Source: Citreicoccus inhibens (GTDB lineage Bacteria > Myxococcota > Myxococcia > Myxococcales > Myxococcaceae). From it: a DNA stretch of 64,000 nt. Below, one piece after another: positions 50,547 through 64,000 of the stretch. Positions within the stretch are counted from its first letter, which is position 1, and the number at the start of each line of letters is the position of its first letter. Under the pieces are notes generated by a model, which was not told where the DNA came from, searched no databases, and saw only the letters and a program-made list of their open reading frames with translations. The stretch is from positions 62,001 to 126,000 of the forward strand of contig NZ_JAHNZT010000002.1 of the NCBI RefSeq assembly GCF_019039035.1, read 5' to 3'. The position numbers were made by a program, and so were the translations under genes.

Positions 50547-52058
50547 ATGCGGCGAGGCTATCTGCACCTCGTGCGCTTCCCCGTACAGCGCAAGGTGGTC
50601 GAGTCGCCGGAGCTGGCGGGGCGGCCCTTCGTGCTCGTGGAGGAGGCGCGTGGCCAGCGCCGCGTGGCGTTCGCGTCCACGAGCGCGCTGCGGGCCGGCG
50701 CGCGGCCCGGGCTGACGCTGACGGCGGCGTGCGCCTTGGAGCCCGCGCTGGGGAACTTTCCCTATCGGCCGGAGGCGGAGACCGCCGCGCTCGCCGCGCT
50801 GGGGGAGGCGCTGCTGGGCCTGTCTCCGGGCTTCCAGCTCAGCGCGCCGGAGGGACTCTGGTTCGACGCGAGCGCGGCGCACCTGGTGGGTGGAGAGGAG
50901 GCCCTGGGAAGCCGGGTGCTGGAGGTCTGCGCCGAGCAGGGCTACCGCGGGCACGTGGCGGTGGCCTCGGAGTCCTTCACCGCACGGGCGCTGGCTCGGC
51001 ACGGGGCGCGGCGCGTGGAGGTCGTGGCCGAGGGCCAGAGCGGTCGGGCGCTCTCGCCGCTGTCGCTGTCCGCCCTGGAGTCTCGCGAGGCCGAGGCGTT
51101 CTCGGCGCTCGGGTTGTCCACGCTGGGGCAGGTGGCGGCGTTGCCTCCCGCGGCGGTGACGGCGCGGGGAGGCGCGGCGGGCGCGCGCATCCAGGCGCGC
51201 TGCCGAGGCGCGGATGACACGCCCTTCGTGCCCGCCGTGTTGGAGGAGGTCCTGGAGGAGCGGGTGGTGCTGGACGGGCCCGTCGAGTCCTTCGAGCCGC
51301 TCCAGTTCGCGCTGAAGACGCTGTTGGATCGCCTGGGCGCGCGGCTGTCCGGCCGAGGCTGGGCGGCGGTGAAGCTCACCTTCCTGCTCAAGCTGGATCC
51401 CTCCGGGTGTCTGGAGTTGCCGCTGACGCTGGCGCGCCCCACGGCCCGCGCGAAGCTCCTGTTGGACCTGGCCCGGCACCGGCTGAGCGAGCTGCGCGTG
51501 GAACACCCCGTGGTGGAGGTGGCCGCGCGGGTGGATGAGCACGGGGAGGACTCGGGCCAGCAGCTCTCGCTGGGCGAGGTGCCGGAGGGGGACGCGGCGC
51601 TGGAGGTGGTGTTGTCCCGGCTGGTGACCACGCTGGGGGACGAGTCGCTGTTCTCCTCGGCGCTGGAGGCGGCGTTCCGGCCCGAGGCCGCGCACCTGCC
51701 TCGGCGCTTCCAACCTCCGGAGGCCCGGCGGGGCCTGGGGATGGACCTGGGGCGGCCCGTGGAGTCCGCGCTCGGGCGGGACCCGGTGGCGTGGGAGCGC
51801 CCCCCTCGGCTGCTGGCCCAGCCCGCCTGTCTGGAGGCAGAGCTGTCGTCCTCCGGCGGGATGCAGGCCGCGTGGCTGAACGGGCGTCGTCACGGGGTGA
51901 CGATGATGGAGGGACCGGAGCGGCTGGACGGTGAGTGGTGGTCCGAGGCGGCTTTTTCGCGCGACTACTATCGCGTGTTCTTCGAGGGGCTGGGGCCCGC
52001 GTGGGTGTTCCGCGACGCGCGCGACGGCCGCTACTACCTGCAAGGGCTGTTCGACTGA
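50547..52058 (+). CDS. imuB: ImuB, catalytically inactive Y-family polymerase homologue
   Basis: A 503-residue relative of Y-family DNA polymerases that acts as a hub linking ImuA and DnaE2 to the beta clamp. The polymerase acidic residues are missing: the segment MRRGYLHLVRFP replaces the DxD-type strand. It keeps the little-finger-type region and a clamp-binding motif candidate QQLSLG near residue 351. The C-terminal ImuB signature is clear: AAWLNGRRHGVTMMEGPERL, then GEWWSEAAFSRDYYRVFFEG and a final YYLQGLFD. No dnaE2 follows, so the polymerase must be encoded elsewhere. Confidence 0.9.
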   Translation: MRRGYLHLVRFPVQRKVVESPELAGRPFVLVEEARGQRRVAFASTSALRAGARPGLTLTAACALEPALGNFPYRPEAETAALAALGEALLGLSPGFQLSAPEGLWFDASAAHLVGGEEALGSRVLEVCAEQGYRGHVAVASESFTARALARHGARRVEVVAEGQSGRALSPLSLSALESREAEAFSALGLSTLGQVAALPPAAVTARGGAAGARIQARCRGADDTPFVPAVLEEVLEERVVLDGPVESFEPLQFALKTLLDRLGARLSGRGWAAVKLTFLLKLDPSGCLELPLTLARPTARAKLLLDLARHRLSELRVEHPVVEVAARVDEHGEDSGQQLSLGEVPEGDAALEVVLSRLVTTLGDESLFSSALEAAFRPEAAHLPRRFQPPEARRGLGMDLGRPVESALGRDPVAWERPPRLLAQPACLEAELSSSGGMQAAWLNGRRHGVTMMEGPERLDGEWWSEAAFSRDYYRVFFEGLGPAWVFRDARDGRYYLQGLFD

Positions 52059-53822: not shown

Positions 53823-55022
53823 ATGAAGCGGGTTCTGGCGCTGGCGGTCTCCCTGGGTTTGGGACTGCCGATGAGCGCATTGGGGGCAGAGTCGGTTCGG
53901 GTGCAGATTCTCAGCGCGACGGTGAAGGATCAGACCATCGCCAACGCGGAGGTCATCCTTCAGAAGAACGGGGAGGCCTCCATCCAGGGCAAGACGGCGG
54001 CGGACGGCACGGCGCGCTTCGAGAAGCCCTTCGGCGGCCTGGATGACAGCGGCGTCAGCCTCATCGTGAAGAAGGATGGCTATTCCAACCTCGTGGCGCG
54101 CTGCCCGTGCAACGGCCTGACGTATGCCGTCAGCCCGGTGATGACCCAGAACCTGGACGGCATGCGCATCGTGCTGAACTGGGGCGCCAAGCCGGCGGAC
54201 CTCGACTCGCACCTGGTACACCCGTCCACCCACGTCTTCTTCTCCAAGAAGAAGGGCGACCTGGCCAACCTCGACGTGGACGACACCACGAGCTACGGGC
54301 CGGAGACCATCACCCTGGAGAAGAAGAAGCCAGGCGTGAAGTATCTCTATGCGGTGCACAACTACACCGAGGGCGACGTCCAGGGCTCCACCACGCTGTC
54401 CAACGTGAGCCAGGCCAAGGTGTTTGTCTATGTGGGCTCCTCGCTCGTCCGCACCTTCACGCCGCCCCAGGGCAAGGCTGGCAATGTCTGGGTGGTGTTT
54501 GGCATTGGCGACAACGGCGAGTTCTATGACATCAACAAGTTCACCGACGTGAGCGACCGCTCGAAGGTCGGCGACTTCATGCAGGGCCTCATCTCCGGCG
54601 AGGGCTTCAAGTCCGTGCCCGAGGTGTCGTCGGATCAGGTCAAGCTCGCGGACAAGCTCAACCGCCAGGGCGAGCAGGCCTACCACGCGAAGAAGCTGGA
54701 CGAGGCCGTGGCGCTCTACCTGGAGGCCATCGCCAACAACCCCGAGCACGGGCAGGCGTACAGCAACCTGGGCCTCGCCTACCAGAAGCTCGACCGGAGC
54801 GCCGAGGCGCTGTGGGCCAACCGCAAGGCCATCGCGCTGGCCTCGGGCCCGAACGCCAACACCATCCAGGCCAGCTCCTTCTACAACATCGCCCGCGTCT
54901 ACGAGAGCCAGAGCCAGTGGAGTGACGCGCTGGAGAACTACCAGGCCGCGCTGGGCAAGAAGGAGCACCCTGCCTACCGCAGTGGCATCGAGAAGATGAA
55001 GCAGAAGCTCGGTCAGCCCTGA
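53823..55022 (+). CDS. Exported DUF2135-like and TPR protein
   Basis: A 399-residue exported protein. The signal peptide (LALAVSLGLGLPMSALGAE) is followed by a carboxypeptidase-regulatory-like domain (25-105) and a domain resembling DUF2135 (about 115-245). The latter has LNWGAKPADLDSHL and YLYAVHNYTEGD, strands of the type found in YfaP-like proteins. Residues 275-395 form TPR repeats (AEQAYHAKKLDEAVALYLEAIANNPEH-type; IARVYESQSQWSDALENYQAAL). ATG 53823 follows CGGAGTG. The polysaccharide deacetylase gene starts 14 bp after its stop, so the two are one unit, perhaps acting on the cell wall. Confidence 0.83.
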   Translation: MKRVLALAVSLGLGLPMSALGAESVRVQILSATVKDQTIANAEVILQKNGEASIQGKTAADGTARFEKPFGGLDDSGVSLIVKKDGYSNLVARCPCNGLTYAVSPVMTQNLDGMRIVLNWGAKPADLDSHLVHPSTHVFFSKKKGDLANLDVDDTTSYGPETITLEKKKPGVKYLYAVHNYTEGDVQGSTTLSNVSQAKVFVYVGSSLVRTFTPPQGKAGNVWVVFGIGDNGEFYDINKFTDVSDRSKVGDFMQGLISGEGFKSVPEVSSDQVKLADKLNRQGEQAYHAKKLDEAVALYLEAIANNPEHGQAYSNLGLAYQKLDRSAEALWANRKAIALASGPNANTIQASSFYNIARVYESQSQWSDALENYQAALGKKEHPAYRSGIEKMKQKLGQP

Positions 55023-58695: not shown

Positions 58696-61600
58696 CTACG
58701 GCAACACGAACAGCGACGTGAGCGCCGAGATGTTGTTGTCCTCGCGCAGCTCCAACTCCTGGCGGTACGAGTCAACGACCGCGCCCAGCGAGTACACCCC
58801 GGCGAGGCCACCCGCGTCGGAGGGGAGGTACGCGTAGGCGTTCATCGTGCGCGTGATGCACTGTCCCGCGTCGAGCGGCGTGAGGACGAGGTAGCCCACC
58901 ATGAGCTGGCTCGTGGGCGGGGGCCCCGAGGGCGCCGCCTGGGGCGGGGTGATGCTGGGCACGGTGGAGATGTACAGCTCCACCGGGACGTTGCTGCTCA
59001 TCACCGCGGCGGTGCCGCGGTTGCACACGGTGACGGAGGCGGTGAACGGGGCATTGATGCGCACGCTGGGAGGACCGCTCACCTGGGTGACGACGAGGTC
59101 CGAGCGATTGCCCACGCCGATGAGGCCGGCGACGAAGGTGTTGTTGTCCTCGCGCAGCTCGGGCTCGGAGCGGTTCGGATCCACGATGGCGCCCAGATAG
59201 TAGGCCCCGTCTCCGGTGTTGGTGCTCGGGAGGTCCGCGTAGGCCTGCACCGTCTGAGTGGTGCACTGGCCGGCCGCGAGCTGCGGCACGGTGAGGATGC
59301 CCACCCGCATCTGGTTCGGATTCATCGGGCCCGGACCGGAGGTGGACGGCACGCTGAGCGTGGGGGTGGTGGACAGGTAGAGCTCCGCCGGGAGCGCGGT
59401 GTAGCTCATCGGGTACGTGCCCTGGTTGCACACCGTGACGACGGCCGTGAACGAGGTGCCCGTGCGCACGCTGGCGGGGCCCGTCACCTGCGTGACGACG
59501 AGGTCGGGGCTGGTCCCCACTCCGACGAGTCCGCCGGTGAAGGTGTTGTTGTCCTCGCGCAGCTCCGTCTCATTGCTGAGCGAATCCACGATGGCGCCCA
59601 GGTAATAGGCCCGGTCCGCCAGCGGCGAGGTCGGCGGAGGCGCGTAGGCGCTCACCGTCACGGTTCGCGTGGTGCACTGCCCCACGTCGAGGGCCGTGAG
59701 CGAGAGCGAGCCCAACAGGCTCTGCGTGTTGGGCGGCGGCCCGGAGGCGGGCGACGGCACGGTGAGCGTCGGGGTGGTGGACAGGTACAGATCCACGAGG
59801 AGGAGGCTGGCGCTCGTCATCGCGGTGCCCTGGTTGCAGACGGTGACTGTGGCGGTGAACGAGGCGCCGGGCATCACGCTGGGAGGACCGCTCACCTGGG
59901 TGACGACGAGGTCCGAGCGGTTGCCCACGCCGATGAGGCCGCCGAGGAAGACGTTGTTGTCCTCGCGCAGCTCCGTCTCCGCGCGGTACGGGTCCACGAT
60001 GGCGCCCAGCGTGTAAGCGCCGTCCCCCGTGCCGTCCGGAGGCAGGTAGGCGTTCATCGTGAGGCTGCGAGTCACGCACTGGCCCGGAGCGAACGAGGGG
60101 AGCGGGACGGAGCCCAGCAGGGTCTGCGTGGACGGCGGGGGGGCGCCCATGCCGGGCATCGTGAGGCTGGGGACGGTGGACAGGTACAGCTCCACGGGGA
60201 GGTTGTTGCTGTTCGTCCAGGCCGTGCCCTGGTTGCAGACGGTGACGGACGCCGTGAAGGGGGAGCTCATCCGCACGCTGGGCGGCGCGCTCAGCTGGGT
60301 GATGACGAGGTCTGGGCGAGTGCCCACGCCGATGAGGCCACCGACGAACGCGTTGTTGTCCTCGCGCAGCTCCAGCTCGTAGCCATACGGGTCGACGAGG
60401 GCGCCCACGTAGAGGGCGGTGTCGGGGGTGGCCTCGGGCGGCGGGTTCGCGTTCACCTGCAGGTCGCGGGTGGTGCACTGTCCCGCGGCGAGATACGACA
60501 GGGAGAAGGCGCCCAGCAGCATCTGGCTGGACGGAGGCGCCCCGGGGCCGCCCGTGACGGGCGCGATGAGGCTGGGGACGGTGGACAGGTACACCTCCAC
60601 GGGGAGGTTGCTGGCGCCCGTCGTTGACGTGCCCTGGTTGCACACCGTGACGGAGGCGGTGAACGCGCCACCCTGCGTCGCGCTGGGCGGCGCGCTCACG
60701 CGGGTGACGACGAGGTCCGAGCGGCTGCCCACGCCCATGAGGCCGCTGAGGAAGACGTTGTTGTCCTCGCGCAGCTCTTGCTCGGTGCCGTACGGATCGA
60801 CGATGGCGCCCAGCGTGTAGGCCCCGTCACCGGTGGCTGCGGGGGGAAGCTGGGCAGAGACGTTCACGTCCACGGTGATGCACCGCCCCGGGATGACCAT
60901 GGGGAGCTGCGTGGAGCCGATCATCCGCTGCGTCGCCGGGGGCGGCGTGGTGAGGCTGGCCACGGTGGACAGGTACAGCTCCACGGGGATGTTGCTGCTG
61001 TTCGTGGGGGTGGTGCCCTGGTTGCAGGCGGTGAGGGACGCGGTGAAGGGGCTGCCCGGCGTCACGCTCGGCGGCGCGCTCAGCTGGGTGATGACGAGGT
61101 CCGAGCGGCTGCCCACGCCCATGAGGCCGCTGAGGAAGATGTTGTTGTCCTCGCGCAGCTCCGTCTCCGCGCGGTACGTATCCACGATGGCGCCCAGCGT
61201 ATAGGCGCCGTCCCCCGTCGCGGCCGGAGGCAGGGTCGCGTTCACGGTCAGCGAGCGCGTGGTGCACTGTCCCGCGGCGAGCCAGCTCAAGGTCATGGCC
61301 CCCAGAAACGTCTGCGTGGGCGGTGGAGGCACGCCCATCCCGGGCTGCGTGAGGCTGGGGACGGTGGACAGGTACAGCTCCACGGGGATGTTGCTGGCCA
61401 TCGTCGAAGAGGTGCCCTGGTTGCAGACGGTGACGGAGGCCACGAAGGCGTTCCCCGCGCGCACGCTCGCGGGCGCGCTCAGCCGGGTGACGACGAGGTC
61501 CGAGCGGTTGCCCACGCCGATGAGGCCACCAACGAATGCGTTGTTGTCCTCGCGCAGCTCCGCTTGAGCCTGGTTCGCGTCGATGATTCCGCCCAGATAG

Positions 61601-62031
61601 TAGGCCGCGTCAGGCGGCGCACCCGCGGGGATGGTGGCATTGGCAGGGACGGTGCGCGTCACGCACTGGCCATTCATCATGCCCGGCACATCCAGCGAGC
61701 CGATGAGCACCTGGCTCGAGGGCGGTGGGGTGGGCGGATAGGCCACGGTCGCGGTGGTGGAGAGGTACAGCTCCAGTCGCGCCGTGGTGGAGCCCGCCGT
61801 GCCCACGTTGCACACCTTCACGGTCGCCGTGAAGGCGCCGCCCGAGGCGGCACTGGGGGGACCGCTCAGGGATGTGATGACGAGATCCGGCGCGGAGATC
61901 AGCGCCTGTCCTTTCTTGCCCAAGGTGTCTGTCGCGTTGGAATCACCTGCGCCACCACAGCCCACTGCCGCGAGCATCCCCGCGAGCCAAAGCAGGCGGG
62001 TGATGCTCGACGTCGGTTGTTGCCGTTTCAT
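58696..62031 (-). CDS. Giant lipoprotein with eight tandem CARDB domains
   Basis: A 1111-residue predicted lipoprotein. The signal ends in LAAVGC, then a short spacer precedes eight CARDB (adhesion-type Ig-like) repeats of about 130 residues. They start with (R/S/A)xDLVVTxxSGPxS and end with LREDNNxFxxGLIGVG. The repeats are close enough in sequence to suggest recent duplication, and recombination between them could change copy number. Likely a surface adhesin or stalk. ATG 62031 follows AAGGGGAG. The upstream region holds paired inverted repeats. No other genes share its unit. Confidence 0.88.
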   Translation of the reverse strand: MKRQQPTSSITRLLWLAGMLAAVGCGGAGDSNATDTLGKKGQALISAPDLVITSLSGPPSAASGGAFTATVKVCNVGTAGSTTARLELYLSTTATVAYPPTPPPSSQVLIGSLDVPGMMNGQCVTRTVPANATIPAGAPPDAAYYLGGIIDANQAQAELREDNNAFVGGLIGVGNRSDLVVTRLSAPASVRAGNAFVASVTVCNQGTSSTMASNIPVELYLSTVPSLTQPGMGVPPPPTQTFLGAMTLSWLAAGQCTTRSLTVNATLPPAATGDGAYTLGAIVDTYRAETELREDNNIFLSGLMGVGSRSDLVITQLSAPPSVTPGSPFTASLTACNQGTTPTNSSNIPVELYLSTVASLTTPPPATQRMIGSTQLPMVIPGRCITVDVNVSAQLPPAATGDGAYTLGAIVDPYGTEQELREDNNVFLSGLMGVGSRSDLVVTRVSAPPSATQGGAFTASVTVCNQGTSTTGASNLPVEVYLSTVPSLIAPVTGGPGAPPSSQMLLGAFSLSYLAAGQCTTRDLQVNANPPPEATPDTALYVGALVDPYGYELELREDNNAFVGGLIGVGTRPDLVITQLSAPPSVRMSSPFTASVTVCNQGTAWTNSNNLPVELYLSTVPSLTMPGMGAPPPSTQTLLGSVPLPSFAPGQCVTRSLTMNAYLPPDGTGDGAYTLGAIVDPYRAETELREDNNVFLGGLIGVGNRSDLVVTQVSGPPSVMPGASFTATVTVCNQGTAMTSASLLLVDLYLSTTPTLTVPSPASGPPPNTQSLLGSLSLTALDVGQCTTRTVTVSAYAPPPTSPLADRAYYLGAIVDSLSNETELREDNNTFTGGLVGVGTSPDLVVTQVTGPASVRTGTSFTAVVTVCNQGTYPMSYTALPAELYLSTTPTLSVPSTSGPGPMNPNQMRVGILTVPQLAAGQCTTQTVQAYADLPSTNTGDGAYYLGAIVDPNRSEPELREDNNTFVAGLIGVGNRSDLVVTQVSGPPSVRINAPFTASVTVCNRGTAAVMSSNVPVELYISTVPSITPPQAAPSGPPPTSQLMVGYLVLTPLDAGQCITRTMNAYAYLPSDAGGLAGVYSLGAVVDSYRQELELREDNNISALTSLFVLP

Positions 62032-62052
62032 GGACTCCCCTTCCTGTGAGGG

Positions 62053-62153
62053 GTTCTGGAGCGGCGCTGCCGGCCCTTCGTCCACTCCAGAACAGACGGG
62101 GAGTTACCAGAAACATGTAATTCTGGAGAAGCACCGGAAAGGTAGGGTTCCGG
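62053..62153. promoter_or_regulatory. Paired inverted repeats upstream of the CARDB lipoprotein gene
   Basis: Two dyads of one design are present: CCAGAA-N8-TTCTGG (62107-62126) and CCGGAA-N8-TTCCGG (62134-62153), 27 bp apart start to start. Closer to the gene, GTTCTGGAG (62053-62061) faces its exact complement CTCCAGAAC (62085-62093), forming a third, wider inverted repeat with the same TTCTGG core. These look like regulator binding sites; no factor is known. Confidence 0.65.
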
Positions 62154-62182: not shown

Positions 62183-63697
62183 TCAGGTGGGGGCGGGCCC
62201 GGTGCTCACCGTCACGCCGCCGTGACCCACGCGCCAGGCCTCCTCGGTGCAGGCCTGCGCGAAGGGGCCGTCGTGACTGACGAGCACGAGGGCGCCGGGG
62301 TACTCGCGCAGGGCGGTCTCCAGTCGCTCGATGGACGGCAGGTCCAGGTGGTTGGTGGGCTCGTCCAGCACGAGCCCCCACGCATGCTGTCCCAGCCCCT
62401 GGGCGATGAGCAGCTTGCGCGCCTCCCCGGGAGAGGGCTGCTCGGAGGCGAGCAGGCGCTGCGGATCCACGCCGAGCGCCGCGACGAGCGAGAGCACGCG
62501 GCCTCGTTCTTCTGGTGGCAGCTCGCGCACGGCGTCGAGCGTGTCGCGGGCCTCCTGGTCGCTCACGTCCTGGGGCAGGTAGAGCACGCGCTCGCGCGGC
62601 ACGCGCAGATGGTCCATGAGCGCGCGCAAGAGCGTCGTCTTGCCCGCGCCATTGGGGCCTTCAATGCGCACCCGCGACTCGCGGCCCACGGACAGCTTCA
62701 CGGGGCCGAGCACCTCCACGTCCCCGGCGCGCAAGGACGGCACATCGATTGTGCACAGCCACGGGTTGGGCGAGCGCACGTAGTCCACGAAGAGCGAGCG
62801 GCCCACGGTCTTGTCCGGGACGAACTCGCCCACCGCCTTCTCGGCGCGCTCCAGCTCGCGTCGGCGCGAGCCCACCTGCGCGCCCAGCCGCGCGTCCGCC
62901 CAGCTCGCGACCGTGGAGGCCGCGAGCGTGCGCGCGTCGCTGTCGTACTTGTTCTTCATCCGCTTGCCGGTGCTGCGCGAGGCGGAGGACGCCTGCTGCT
63001 CGCGGCGGGCCTTGTCCAGCAGCTGCGCGGCGCGATCCCGCTCGCTGCGTGCTTGCTGATGCGCCGCCACCTCGACATCGCGCGCGGCCTCCCAGTGTCC
63101 TCGCGCGGTGGCATACGCGCCGGGCCACAGGCGCACCTCGCCCGCATGCACGCGCAGCGTCGAAGTCGTGAGGGCCTCGAGCAGCGCGCGATCATGCGAC
63201 ACGACGACGCCCACGCCCTTGAAGCGGCGCAGCGCGGACACGAGCCAGGTGCGGCCCTCCACGTCCAGGTGGTTGGTGGGCTCGTCGAGCAGCAACACGG
63301 TCGGCTCGGCGGCCAACGCCGCGCCAATCTGCCAGCGCTTGCGCTCCCCAGGTGACAACGAGGGCCAGCGCTCCAGCGCGGTGATATCCAGCCCGAGCTG
63401 CCCATGGAGCCGGCGCGCCAGGGCGTCATACGCGTCCGCGAAGGCGGCGATCTCCGGCGTGAGCGCCTCCACGCTCTGTGGACACAGTCGGATGAGGGGC
63501 GAGGGGGGCTCGAACTGGAGGTGCCCGTCGGTGGGCGTCAGCTCCCCGGACAGCAGCCGGAGCAAGGTAGACTTGCCCGCGCCATTGGAGCCCACGAGTC
63601 CCGTCCAGCCCGAGGGCAGGTGGAACTCGACATCGGTGAGAACGGGAACAGCGTCAGTGAAGGCGAACGACACGCCATGCGCGCGAAGGGATGACAA
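62183..63697 (-). CDS. ABC-F family ATPase
   Basis: The 504-residue soluble protein has two ABC domains and no membrane segment. Domain one has Walker A GSNGAGKST, signature LSPGERKRW and LLLDEPTNHLD. Domain two has GPNGAGKTT, a weak signature PSPGEARKL and VLDEPTNHLD. The linker is Lys/Arg-rich. ABC-F proteins act on the ribosome, in translation or in antibiotic protection. The start is TTG 63697, supported by CAGGAG 7 nt upstream. That ribosome-binding site lies in a 12-bp stem (63704-63772), so translation is probably regulated. Which subgroup it belongs to cannot be told here. Confidence 0.9.
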   Translation of the reverse strand: MSSLRAHGVSFAFTDAVPVLTDVEFHLPSGWTGLVGSNGAGKSTLLRLLSGELTPTDGHLQFEPPSPLIRLCPQSVEALTPEIAAFADAYDALARRLHGQLGLDITALERWPSLSPGERKRWQIGAALAAEPTVLLLDEPTNHLDVEGRTWLVSALRRFKGVGVVVSHDRALLEALTTSTLRVHAGEVRLWPGAYATARGHWEAARDVEVAAHQQARSERDRAAQLLDKARREQQASSASRSTGKRMKNKYDSDARTLAASTVASWADARLGAQVGSRRRELERAEKAVGEFVPDKTVGRSLFVDYVRSPNPWLCTIDVPSLRAGDVEVLGPVKLSVGRESRVRIEGPNGAGKTTLLRALMDHLRVPRERVLYLPQDVSDQEARDTLDAVRELPPEERGRVLSLVAALGVDPQRLLASEQPSPGEARKLLIAQGLGQHAWGLVLDEPTNHLDLPSIERLETALREYPGALVLVSHDGPFAQACTEEAWRVGHGGVTVSTGPAPT

Positions 63698-63703
63698 GCA
63701 GCG

Positions 63704-63772
63704 ACTCCTGAATCCGGATCACGCCCGGGGGGCGCGAAGGGGTACGTCAACGGCAACCGGGGATTCAGGAGT
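63704..63772 (-). promoter_or_regulatory. Ribosome-binding-site-sequestering hairpin in the ABC-F leader
   Basis: In the leftward mRNA, ACTCCTGAATCC (63772-63761) is followed 45 nt later by its perfect complement GGATTCAGGAGT (63715-63704). The latter contains the Shine-Dalgarno sequence AGGAG, 7 nt before the TTG start, so pairing hides it. Two further hairpins precede it (63805-63821 and 63832-63847). A possible 5-codon leader reading frame (TTG 63782 to TGA ending 63765) stops inside the first arm. Confidence 0.7.
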
Positions 63773-63874
63773 GCAGGCGCAAGGGTGTGGAAACCTCGTG
63801 TGGCGGAGGGCTGACCCCTCCAGAGCGACAAGAGGGCGGCGGCCCTCGGGATGACGCGTCGAACAGCGCGCCTA

Positions 63875-63903
63875 GCTATAAACGGCGCGCGCGATCGATG
63901 CAA
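63875..63903 (-). promoter_or_regulatory. Sigma-70-type promoter for the ABC-F gene
   Basis: Reading leftward, TTGCAT (63903-63898) and TATAGC (63880-63875) are exactly 17 bp apart. A start near 63868 gives a leader of about 170 nt that carries three hairpins before the ABC-F start codon. Confidence 0.6.
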
Positions 63904-63931
63904 CTGCTTGCTCTGTCGCGCGGCGCGGGGC

Positions 63932-64000
63932 TCACCGCTCGGCGGAGGCCTCGGTCAGCAGGCGGAGCTGTTCCGCGCTCAACTGAAGCTGGAGCATGGG
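63932..64000 (-). CDS. 3' end of a gene continuing beyond the window
   Basis: A leftward frame entering at the right edge ends at TGA (63934-63932). The visible 22 residues, from PMLQLQLSAEQLRLLTEA to the end, form an amphipathic helix with good codon use. Too little is visible to name it. Confidence 0.45.
   Translation of the reverse strand, partial: PMLQLQLSAEQLRLLTEASAER

Follow-up and report, generated by a model that had tools for sequence, protein, structure and literature searches.

The ABC-F gene and its leader

The window, a stretch of 64,000 nucleotides from Citreicoccus inhibens (NZ_JAHNZT010000002.1, positions 62,001 to 126,000), carries on its minus strand a gene encoding an ABC-F ATPase of 504 amino acids with a TTG start (62183-63697). 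The Walker and signature motifs of both ATP-binding cassettes are intact, the protein lacks a membrane domain, and its linker contains two long helices (residues 195-247 and 255-289) in the AlphaFold model (pLDDT 89). Structural alignment of this model with VIA-align ranked VmlR2 (Z 36.7), VgaL (36.3), VmlR (34.4), LsaA (33.8) and VgaA-LC (33.1) at the top, with EttA (32.6) and MsrE (28.2) both below these PLSA-type matches. The predicted structure would therefore place the PLSA-type resistance ABC-Fs ahead, by a small margin that is suggestive only. The protein missed the cut-off of NCBIfam NF000355 (ribosomal protection-like ABC-F; 286.9 versus 380 bits), and its role in resistance is thus one that we infer. 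Of the family's 96 genomes, 78 carry the gene, which is nearly universal among the main genera, unlike most mobile resistance genes. Just downstream of it, positions 58696-62085 of the same strand encode a predicted protein of 1129 amino acids with tandem repeats ending in ELREDNN, which we take to be, perhaps, CARDB-type adhesion domains.

The leader of the ABC-F gene lies on the minus strand and begins with a promoter-like pair of boxes, TTGCAT (63898-63903, predicted -35) and TATAGC (63875-63880, predicted -10), separated by 17 nt; transcription would start near 63868, giving a leader of about 170 nt. This pair was absent from the list of a strict promoter scan, and a TTGCNN-17-TANNNN-like box was found upstream of many orthologues. 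Two hairpins formed by RNAfold follow, GAGGGC/GCCCTC (63832-63847) and GGAGGG/CCCTCC (63805-63821); the second, similar to a GGAGGG..CCCTCC element of many relatives that is absent in genus g7, is located just upstream of a GAGG Shine-Dalgarno (SD) sequence (63794-63797). This GAGG serves a putative leader mini-ORF, TTG CGC CTG CAC TCC TGA (63765-63782), encoding MRLHS, the stop codon of which is held in the 5' (anti-SD) arm ACTCCTGAATCC (63761-63772). After a loop with an inner hairpin of variable sequence (63719-63737, RNAfold), the 3' arm GGATTCAGGAGT (63704-63715) includes the SD sequence of the ABC-F gene, AGGAG (63705-63709), 7 nt ahead of the TTG at 63697. Read on the minus strand (63772-63761 with 63715-63704), the two arms form a perfect 12-bp pairing in which all of the AGGAG is paired. 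RNAfold also formed this SD-hiding stem, the whole leader folding at -81.2 kcal/mol (z -2.3). An earlier note on this DNA had described the repeat with its AGGAG, a leader of about 170 nt from a good promoter, two more hairpins and a possible five-codon frame with its stop in the first arm; all of these were recovered, the repeat at exactly the same coordinates and the promoter as a predicted one.

The window held three perfect 12-mer inverted repeats with 20-80 nt spacers where 1.85 were expected, the other two lying at 50783-50879 and 54235-54327 (spacers of 73 and 69 nt), which is about the chance number. The 12-bp repeat by itself is thus near chance for a 64-kb window and unremarkable; a perfect 12-mer repeat ending at the start site was found in none of 4000 shuffled leaders, and the conservation described below decides the matter in favour of a real element. 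There was no terminator-like site in 63500-64000 and no T-run after the stem, so the mechanism would be translational rather than transcription attenuation.

Conservation of the mini-ORF and the stem

The strongest evidence comes from conservation of the mini-ORF and not from covariation in the stem. Exactly NTG, four codons and TGA occur at the same place in 64 orthologues, preceded at 10-12 nt by their own GAGG, and the stop codon adjoins or sits inside the anti-SD arm; the arrangement is kept across dozens of myxobacterial species. In addition to the MRLHS of the window, the predicted peptides are MKLHA, MKLYA, MKLFA, MKLNA, MKLSR, MKLNR, MRTLR, MRLSR, MRQNR, MRKSN, MKLHS, MKIHS, MKILS, MKMNS, MMLNA, MRLSF and MRLSS. 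Column changes were counted on a tree of 63 ABC-F proteins drawn from these 64 orthologues. The first column of the start codon changed four times, only among T, G and A and never to C, while its T and G columns and the four C-TGA columns did not change at all. Codon 2 changed seven times, yet specifies Lys or Arg (AAG, AGG, CGC) in 62 of 63, and codon 4 is free (11 changes). Among the flanking columns (-20 to -1 and +20 to +29), 25 of 30 changed 3-15 times and the others 0-2 times. Such a distribution of changes is what a translated frame would show if its length and second residue matter.

The first 31 alignment columns, covering the mini-ORF and the arm, are gap-free in the 27 distinct leaders, and the length of the loop varies. 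RNAalifold returned no structure for this alignment, because loop lengths differ and the inner hairpins are unaligned; support for the stem was therefore counted directly on the named pairs. Of the cells in the named stem, 83.6% pair, versus 17-48.5% when the partner is slid by 1-3 columns. Exchanges on both sides occur at pair 20/100 (U-A to A-U) and pair 22/98 (C-G to G-C), and the inner hairpin of genus g7 has U-A to C-G and A-U to G-C exchanges. Double-change cells were more numerous than in any of 500 shuffles; pairs that had changed on both sides were not unusually many, their number being reached by 128 of the 500. The SD core is often not fully paired (pair 13/107 is open in 22 of 27 leaders and pair 14/106 in 10 of 27), and many leaders, most notably those of genus g19, have lost the outer pairs over it; the g19 stem stops beside GGAG. 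The comparison with relatives and the RNA folding that the earlier note had suggested as checks thus support the pairing, with some compensatory changes. Its reading of the architecture as attenuation is largely supported: the SD-sequestering hairpin, the conserved leader ORF and a predicted promoter that precedes all of these elements uphold it. One refinement is that in many orthologues, including most of g19, the GAG of the SD core is unpaired and the stem adjoins it.

The stop codon lies inside the arm, so pairing could explain part of its conservation, and the leader might then be a plain hairpin that damps translation or controls it by temperature, with the mini-ORF a by-product of the conserved arm. 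We consider this very unlikely. The GAGG and NTG of the mini-ORF lie outside the stem and are kept nonetheless, with N restricted to T, G and A, and the related two-codon leader described below places TGA, TAA or TAG at one position. A search of the leader against Rfam gave no RNA thermometer or riboswitch match up to E = 1.

Predicted opening of the ABC-F start by an occupied mini-ORF

Folding calculations on the 64 leaders indicated that opening the main start region would cost 17.7 kcal/mol (sd 3.4) in the free RNA, 7.6 kcal/mol with a ribosome-sized block on the start codon of the mini-ORF and 8.8 kcal/mol with the block on codon 5, as compared with an unchanged 17.7 kcal/mol for a control block in the loop; the drop is partly built in, as the mini-ORF overlaps the arm, and the model addresses sufficiency rather than use. 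For 26 remoter leaders the corresponding values were 14.3 (free), 9.6 (occupied) and 14.3 (control), with a drop of at least 4 kcal/mol in 17 of the 26. These opening costs, which refer to the start region as a whole, replaced the simple probability that the SD is unpaired; the mean of that probability gave no switch signal, as the SD can pair elsewhere in RNA so rich in G+C. In this model, occupancy of the mini-ORF is sufficient to open the ABC-F start. Occupancy of the start codon would be enough, and hence a drug need only prevent formation of the first peptide bonds.

Another reading is a general sensor of translation stress, in which slow initiation, starvation or a shortage of ribosomes feeds a housekeeping-like ABC-F and any lingering ribosome opens the gene. 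The near universality of the ABC-F gene in the main genera fits such a role, and in Escherichia coli a uORF ahead of topAI is described as a sensor for several classes of drug (PMC12121999). However, no amino acid is enriched in the mini-ORF as a starvation attenuator would need, and related leaders are found on Cfr-like resistance genes. We therefore judge a stress sensor to be improbable compared with the drug-responsive attenuator proposed here.

Related leaders in other lineages

A scan of named genomes returned mostly unrelated ABC-Fs and left out near relatives, Sorangium cellulosum So ce26 being the only useful genome. Its orthologue, 57% identical at the protein level, is preceded by GTG AAG ATC AGC TCC TGA (MKISS) and by a matching AGCTCCTGAATC/GATTCAGGAGCT stem. 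In family f8, two genomes encode MRLSF and MRLSS, and remoter orthologues have apparent frames of 2-5 codons, for example ATG AAC GCC TGA; these remote-clade mini-ORFs were in part chosen by eye and carry less weight, and three leaders (L080, L088 and L099) are without an assigned frame. In most of the remoter leaders, the ATG of the frame lies 25-31 nt, very often exactly 28 nt, after a TTGCNN-17-TANNNN-like pair. The distance from the -10 box to the ATG of the mini-ORF is 28 nt in nearly all members of family f3 (L082-L094), and the predicted mRNA would therefore begin about 20 nt before the mini-ORF. A further set of weak R1 matches (L101-L109; E 0.0015-0.11) was rejected as chance-like, having other reading frames and no mini-ORF with an SD hairpin.

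A covariance model of the leader, run on the 96 genomes, gave no more than a single strong copy in each, on this ABC-F gene, apart from one extra strong copy in genome G003 (E 1e-6, MRLNS; L100:298-384, G003:C1:11513797-11513883). This extra leader sits on an ABC-F remnant of 33 amino acids, about 400 nt upstream of a Cfr-like gene (TIGR04432, 375.6 bits against a cut-off of 550; RlmN, 234.7 bits). Cfr-like genes were detected in 8 of 145 genomes of the order, including that of Citreicoccus inhibens. Seven of the eight have an ATG GCC stop leader and an SD-tying hairpin in front of the gene, and the eighth has a five-codon leader. Several genomes retain the leader and the Cfr-like gene but only a remnant of the second ABC-F, and in genome G143 an ATG GCC stop leader precedes an intact ABC-F gene. 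For six ATG GCC leaders, the folding model gave opening costs of 22.5 (free), 14.6 (occupied) and 22.3 (control). In the Citreicoccus inhibens genome, outside the window, the Cfr-like 23S rRNA methyltransferase gene (L111, G000:C30:127222-128220, minus strand; 367 bits to TIGR04432, cut-off 550) follows an ATG GCC TAA leader with an SD hairpin (L119, G000:C30:128661-128682, minus strand), and the remnant of a second ABC-F gene also lies ahead of it. The use of all three stops by the two-codon leader, and of mostly TAG by the mini-frames of family f3, led us to reject a sensor of RF2 or UGA.

Cfr is described as methylating A2503 in the peptidyl transferase centre (PMC8752094), and the company kept by these leaders therefore points to drugs of that site. 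It bears also on another version of the same switch, in which the leader would be tuned to sequence-dependent drugs of the exit tunnel (macrolide type), with M-R/K-L acting as an arrest peptide. MRL-type leaders precede some erm and msr genes, a lead in this direction, and the retention of Lys or Arg at codon 2 through codon changes would be consistent with it. However, codon 4 is free, so that no +X+ arrest motif is kept, the remote leaders of 2-3 codons seem too short for arrest in the tunnel, and both the Cfr-like partner and the structural neighbours of the ABC-F protein point to the peptidyl-transferase centre. Tuning to tunnel drugs therefore appears unlikely.

Comparison with known attenuators

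In the attenuators of cat-86 and cmlA, the leader ORF enters the first arm of the structure hiding the SD of the resistance gene, and a stalled ribosome opens it. The leaders of cat-86, cmlA and ermC are longer (about 9-20 codons), have defined arrest peptides and precede other resistance genes. The myxobacterial leader ORF likewise runs into the first arm of an SD-hiding hairpin, as does that of ermC, whose hairpin is opened by a stalled ribosome (PMC10219788). The features of this kind of attenuator are thus present, namely an SD within a hairpin (partly so in other orthologues) and a leader ORF overlapping the 5' arm.

The kind represented by VmlR, CplR and Are5 shares with our leader a conserved short uORF with its own SD upstream of an ABC-F gene; its intrinsic terminator was not found in the leader, which is consequently not filed as a transcription attenuator. 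In Gram-positive bacteria, the uORFs ahead of PLSA ABC-F genes are three or four codons long (cplR, MR[I/M]; vmlR, MIN; vmlR2, MK[L/Q]; lsaA, MAGN; PMC10201436), and the myxobacterial M[K/R][L/I] start resembles those of vmlR2 and cplR. The cplR leader of Clostridioides difficile also combines a short uORF with a hairpin holding the SD of a PLSA-type ABC-F; the start codon of its three-codon uORF is required, and a poly-U mutant indicates that translational attenuation alone suffices (PMC10201436). Unlike cplR, in which the SD hairpin doubles as an intrinsic terminator, the myxobacterial leader has no terminator, has five codons and places the uORF stop inside the anti-SD arm. An ultra-short uORF and an SD-sequestering hairpin are also found in vmlR and vmlR2 of Bacilli, where stalling occurs at initiation and the SD hairpin is one layer of control (PMC9226507, PMC10201436); however, these Gram-positive systems act chiefly by transcription attenuation, with antiterminators and polymerase pausing. 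Lincomycin is not known to act in a sequence-dependent way, yet the sequence of the vmlR uORF influences induction (PMC10201436). The are5sc/tiaA gene of Streptomyces coelicolor likewise follows an ultra-short uORF, the three-codon MLV, which gives start-codon toeprints with lincosamides, pleuromutilins and streptogramin A, but this actinobacterial system has a predicted terminator/anti-terminator switch (PMC12421871). In the open-licence literature we found no paper on a myxobacterial leader of this kind, in agreement with the earlier note, which knew of no described example, and nothing on the Deltaproteobacterial ABCF subfamilies.

Proposed mechanism and implications

Our analysis demonstrates the anatomy and conservation of this leader, and we favor its interpretation as a ribosome-mediated translational attenuator acting through the five-codon mini-ORF, with a probability of about 0.8. 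The mRNA would start upstream of the leader ORF. When no drug is present, a ribosome would finish the mini-ORF at once and depart, and the anti-SD arm, including the stop codon of the mini-ORF, would pair with the ribosome-binding site of the ABC-F gene and keep it shut. A drug may instead hold the ribosome on or just after the start codon of the mini-ORF, where it would cover the anti-SD arm and free the SD, allowing synthesis of the ABC-F protein, which would then clear the drug. Peptidyl-transferase-centre drugs would be the probable signal, the likeliest inducer being of the pleuromutilin, lincosamide or streptogramin A kind.

This kind of control is known from Gram-positive ABC-F genes; new here are its occurrence in this phylum, the lack of a terminator and the use of such leaders by Cfr-like genes as well. 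More tentatively, at somewhat short of even odds, the leaders may represent a Myxococcota family of terminator-free attenuators with 5-, 3- or 2-codon (Met-Ala-stop) leaders, common to ABC-F and Cfr-like genes, in which M-(Lys/Arg)-(Leu/Ile) would be a converged PLSA stalling motif. If so, this motif would stall ribosomes for drugs so far thought to be little sequence-dependent. The approximately 90 natural variants, in which leader peptide, stop codon and stem vary, could be used to test whether PLSA drugs read the first residues. The analysis also flags the Cfr-like and ABC-F genes of myxobacteria as candidate inducible resistance genes, and the proposed mechanism would mean that predatory soil bacteria of a Gram-negative phylum, too, place ribosome protection under drug-sensed control.
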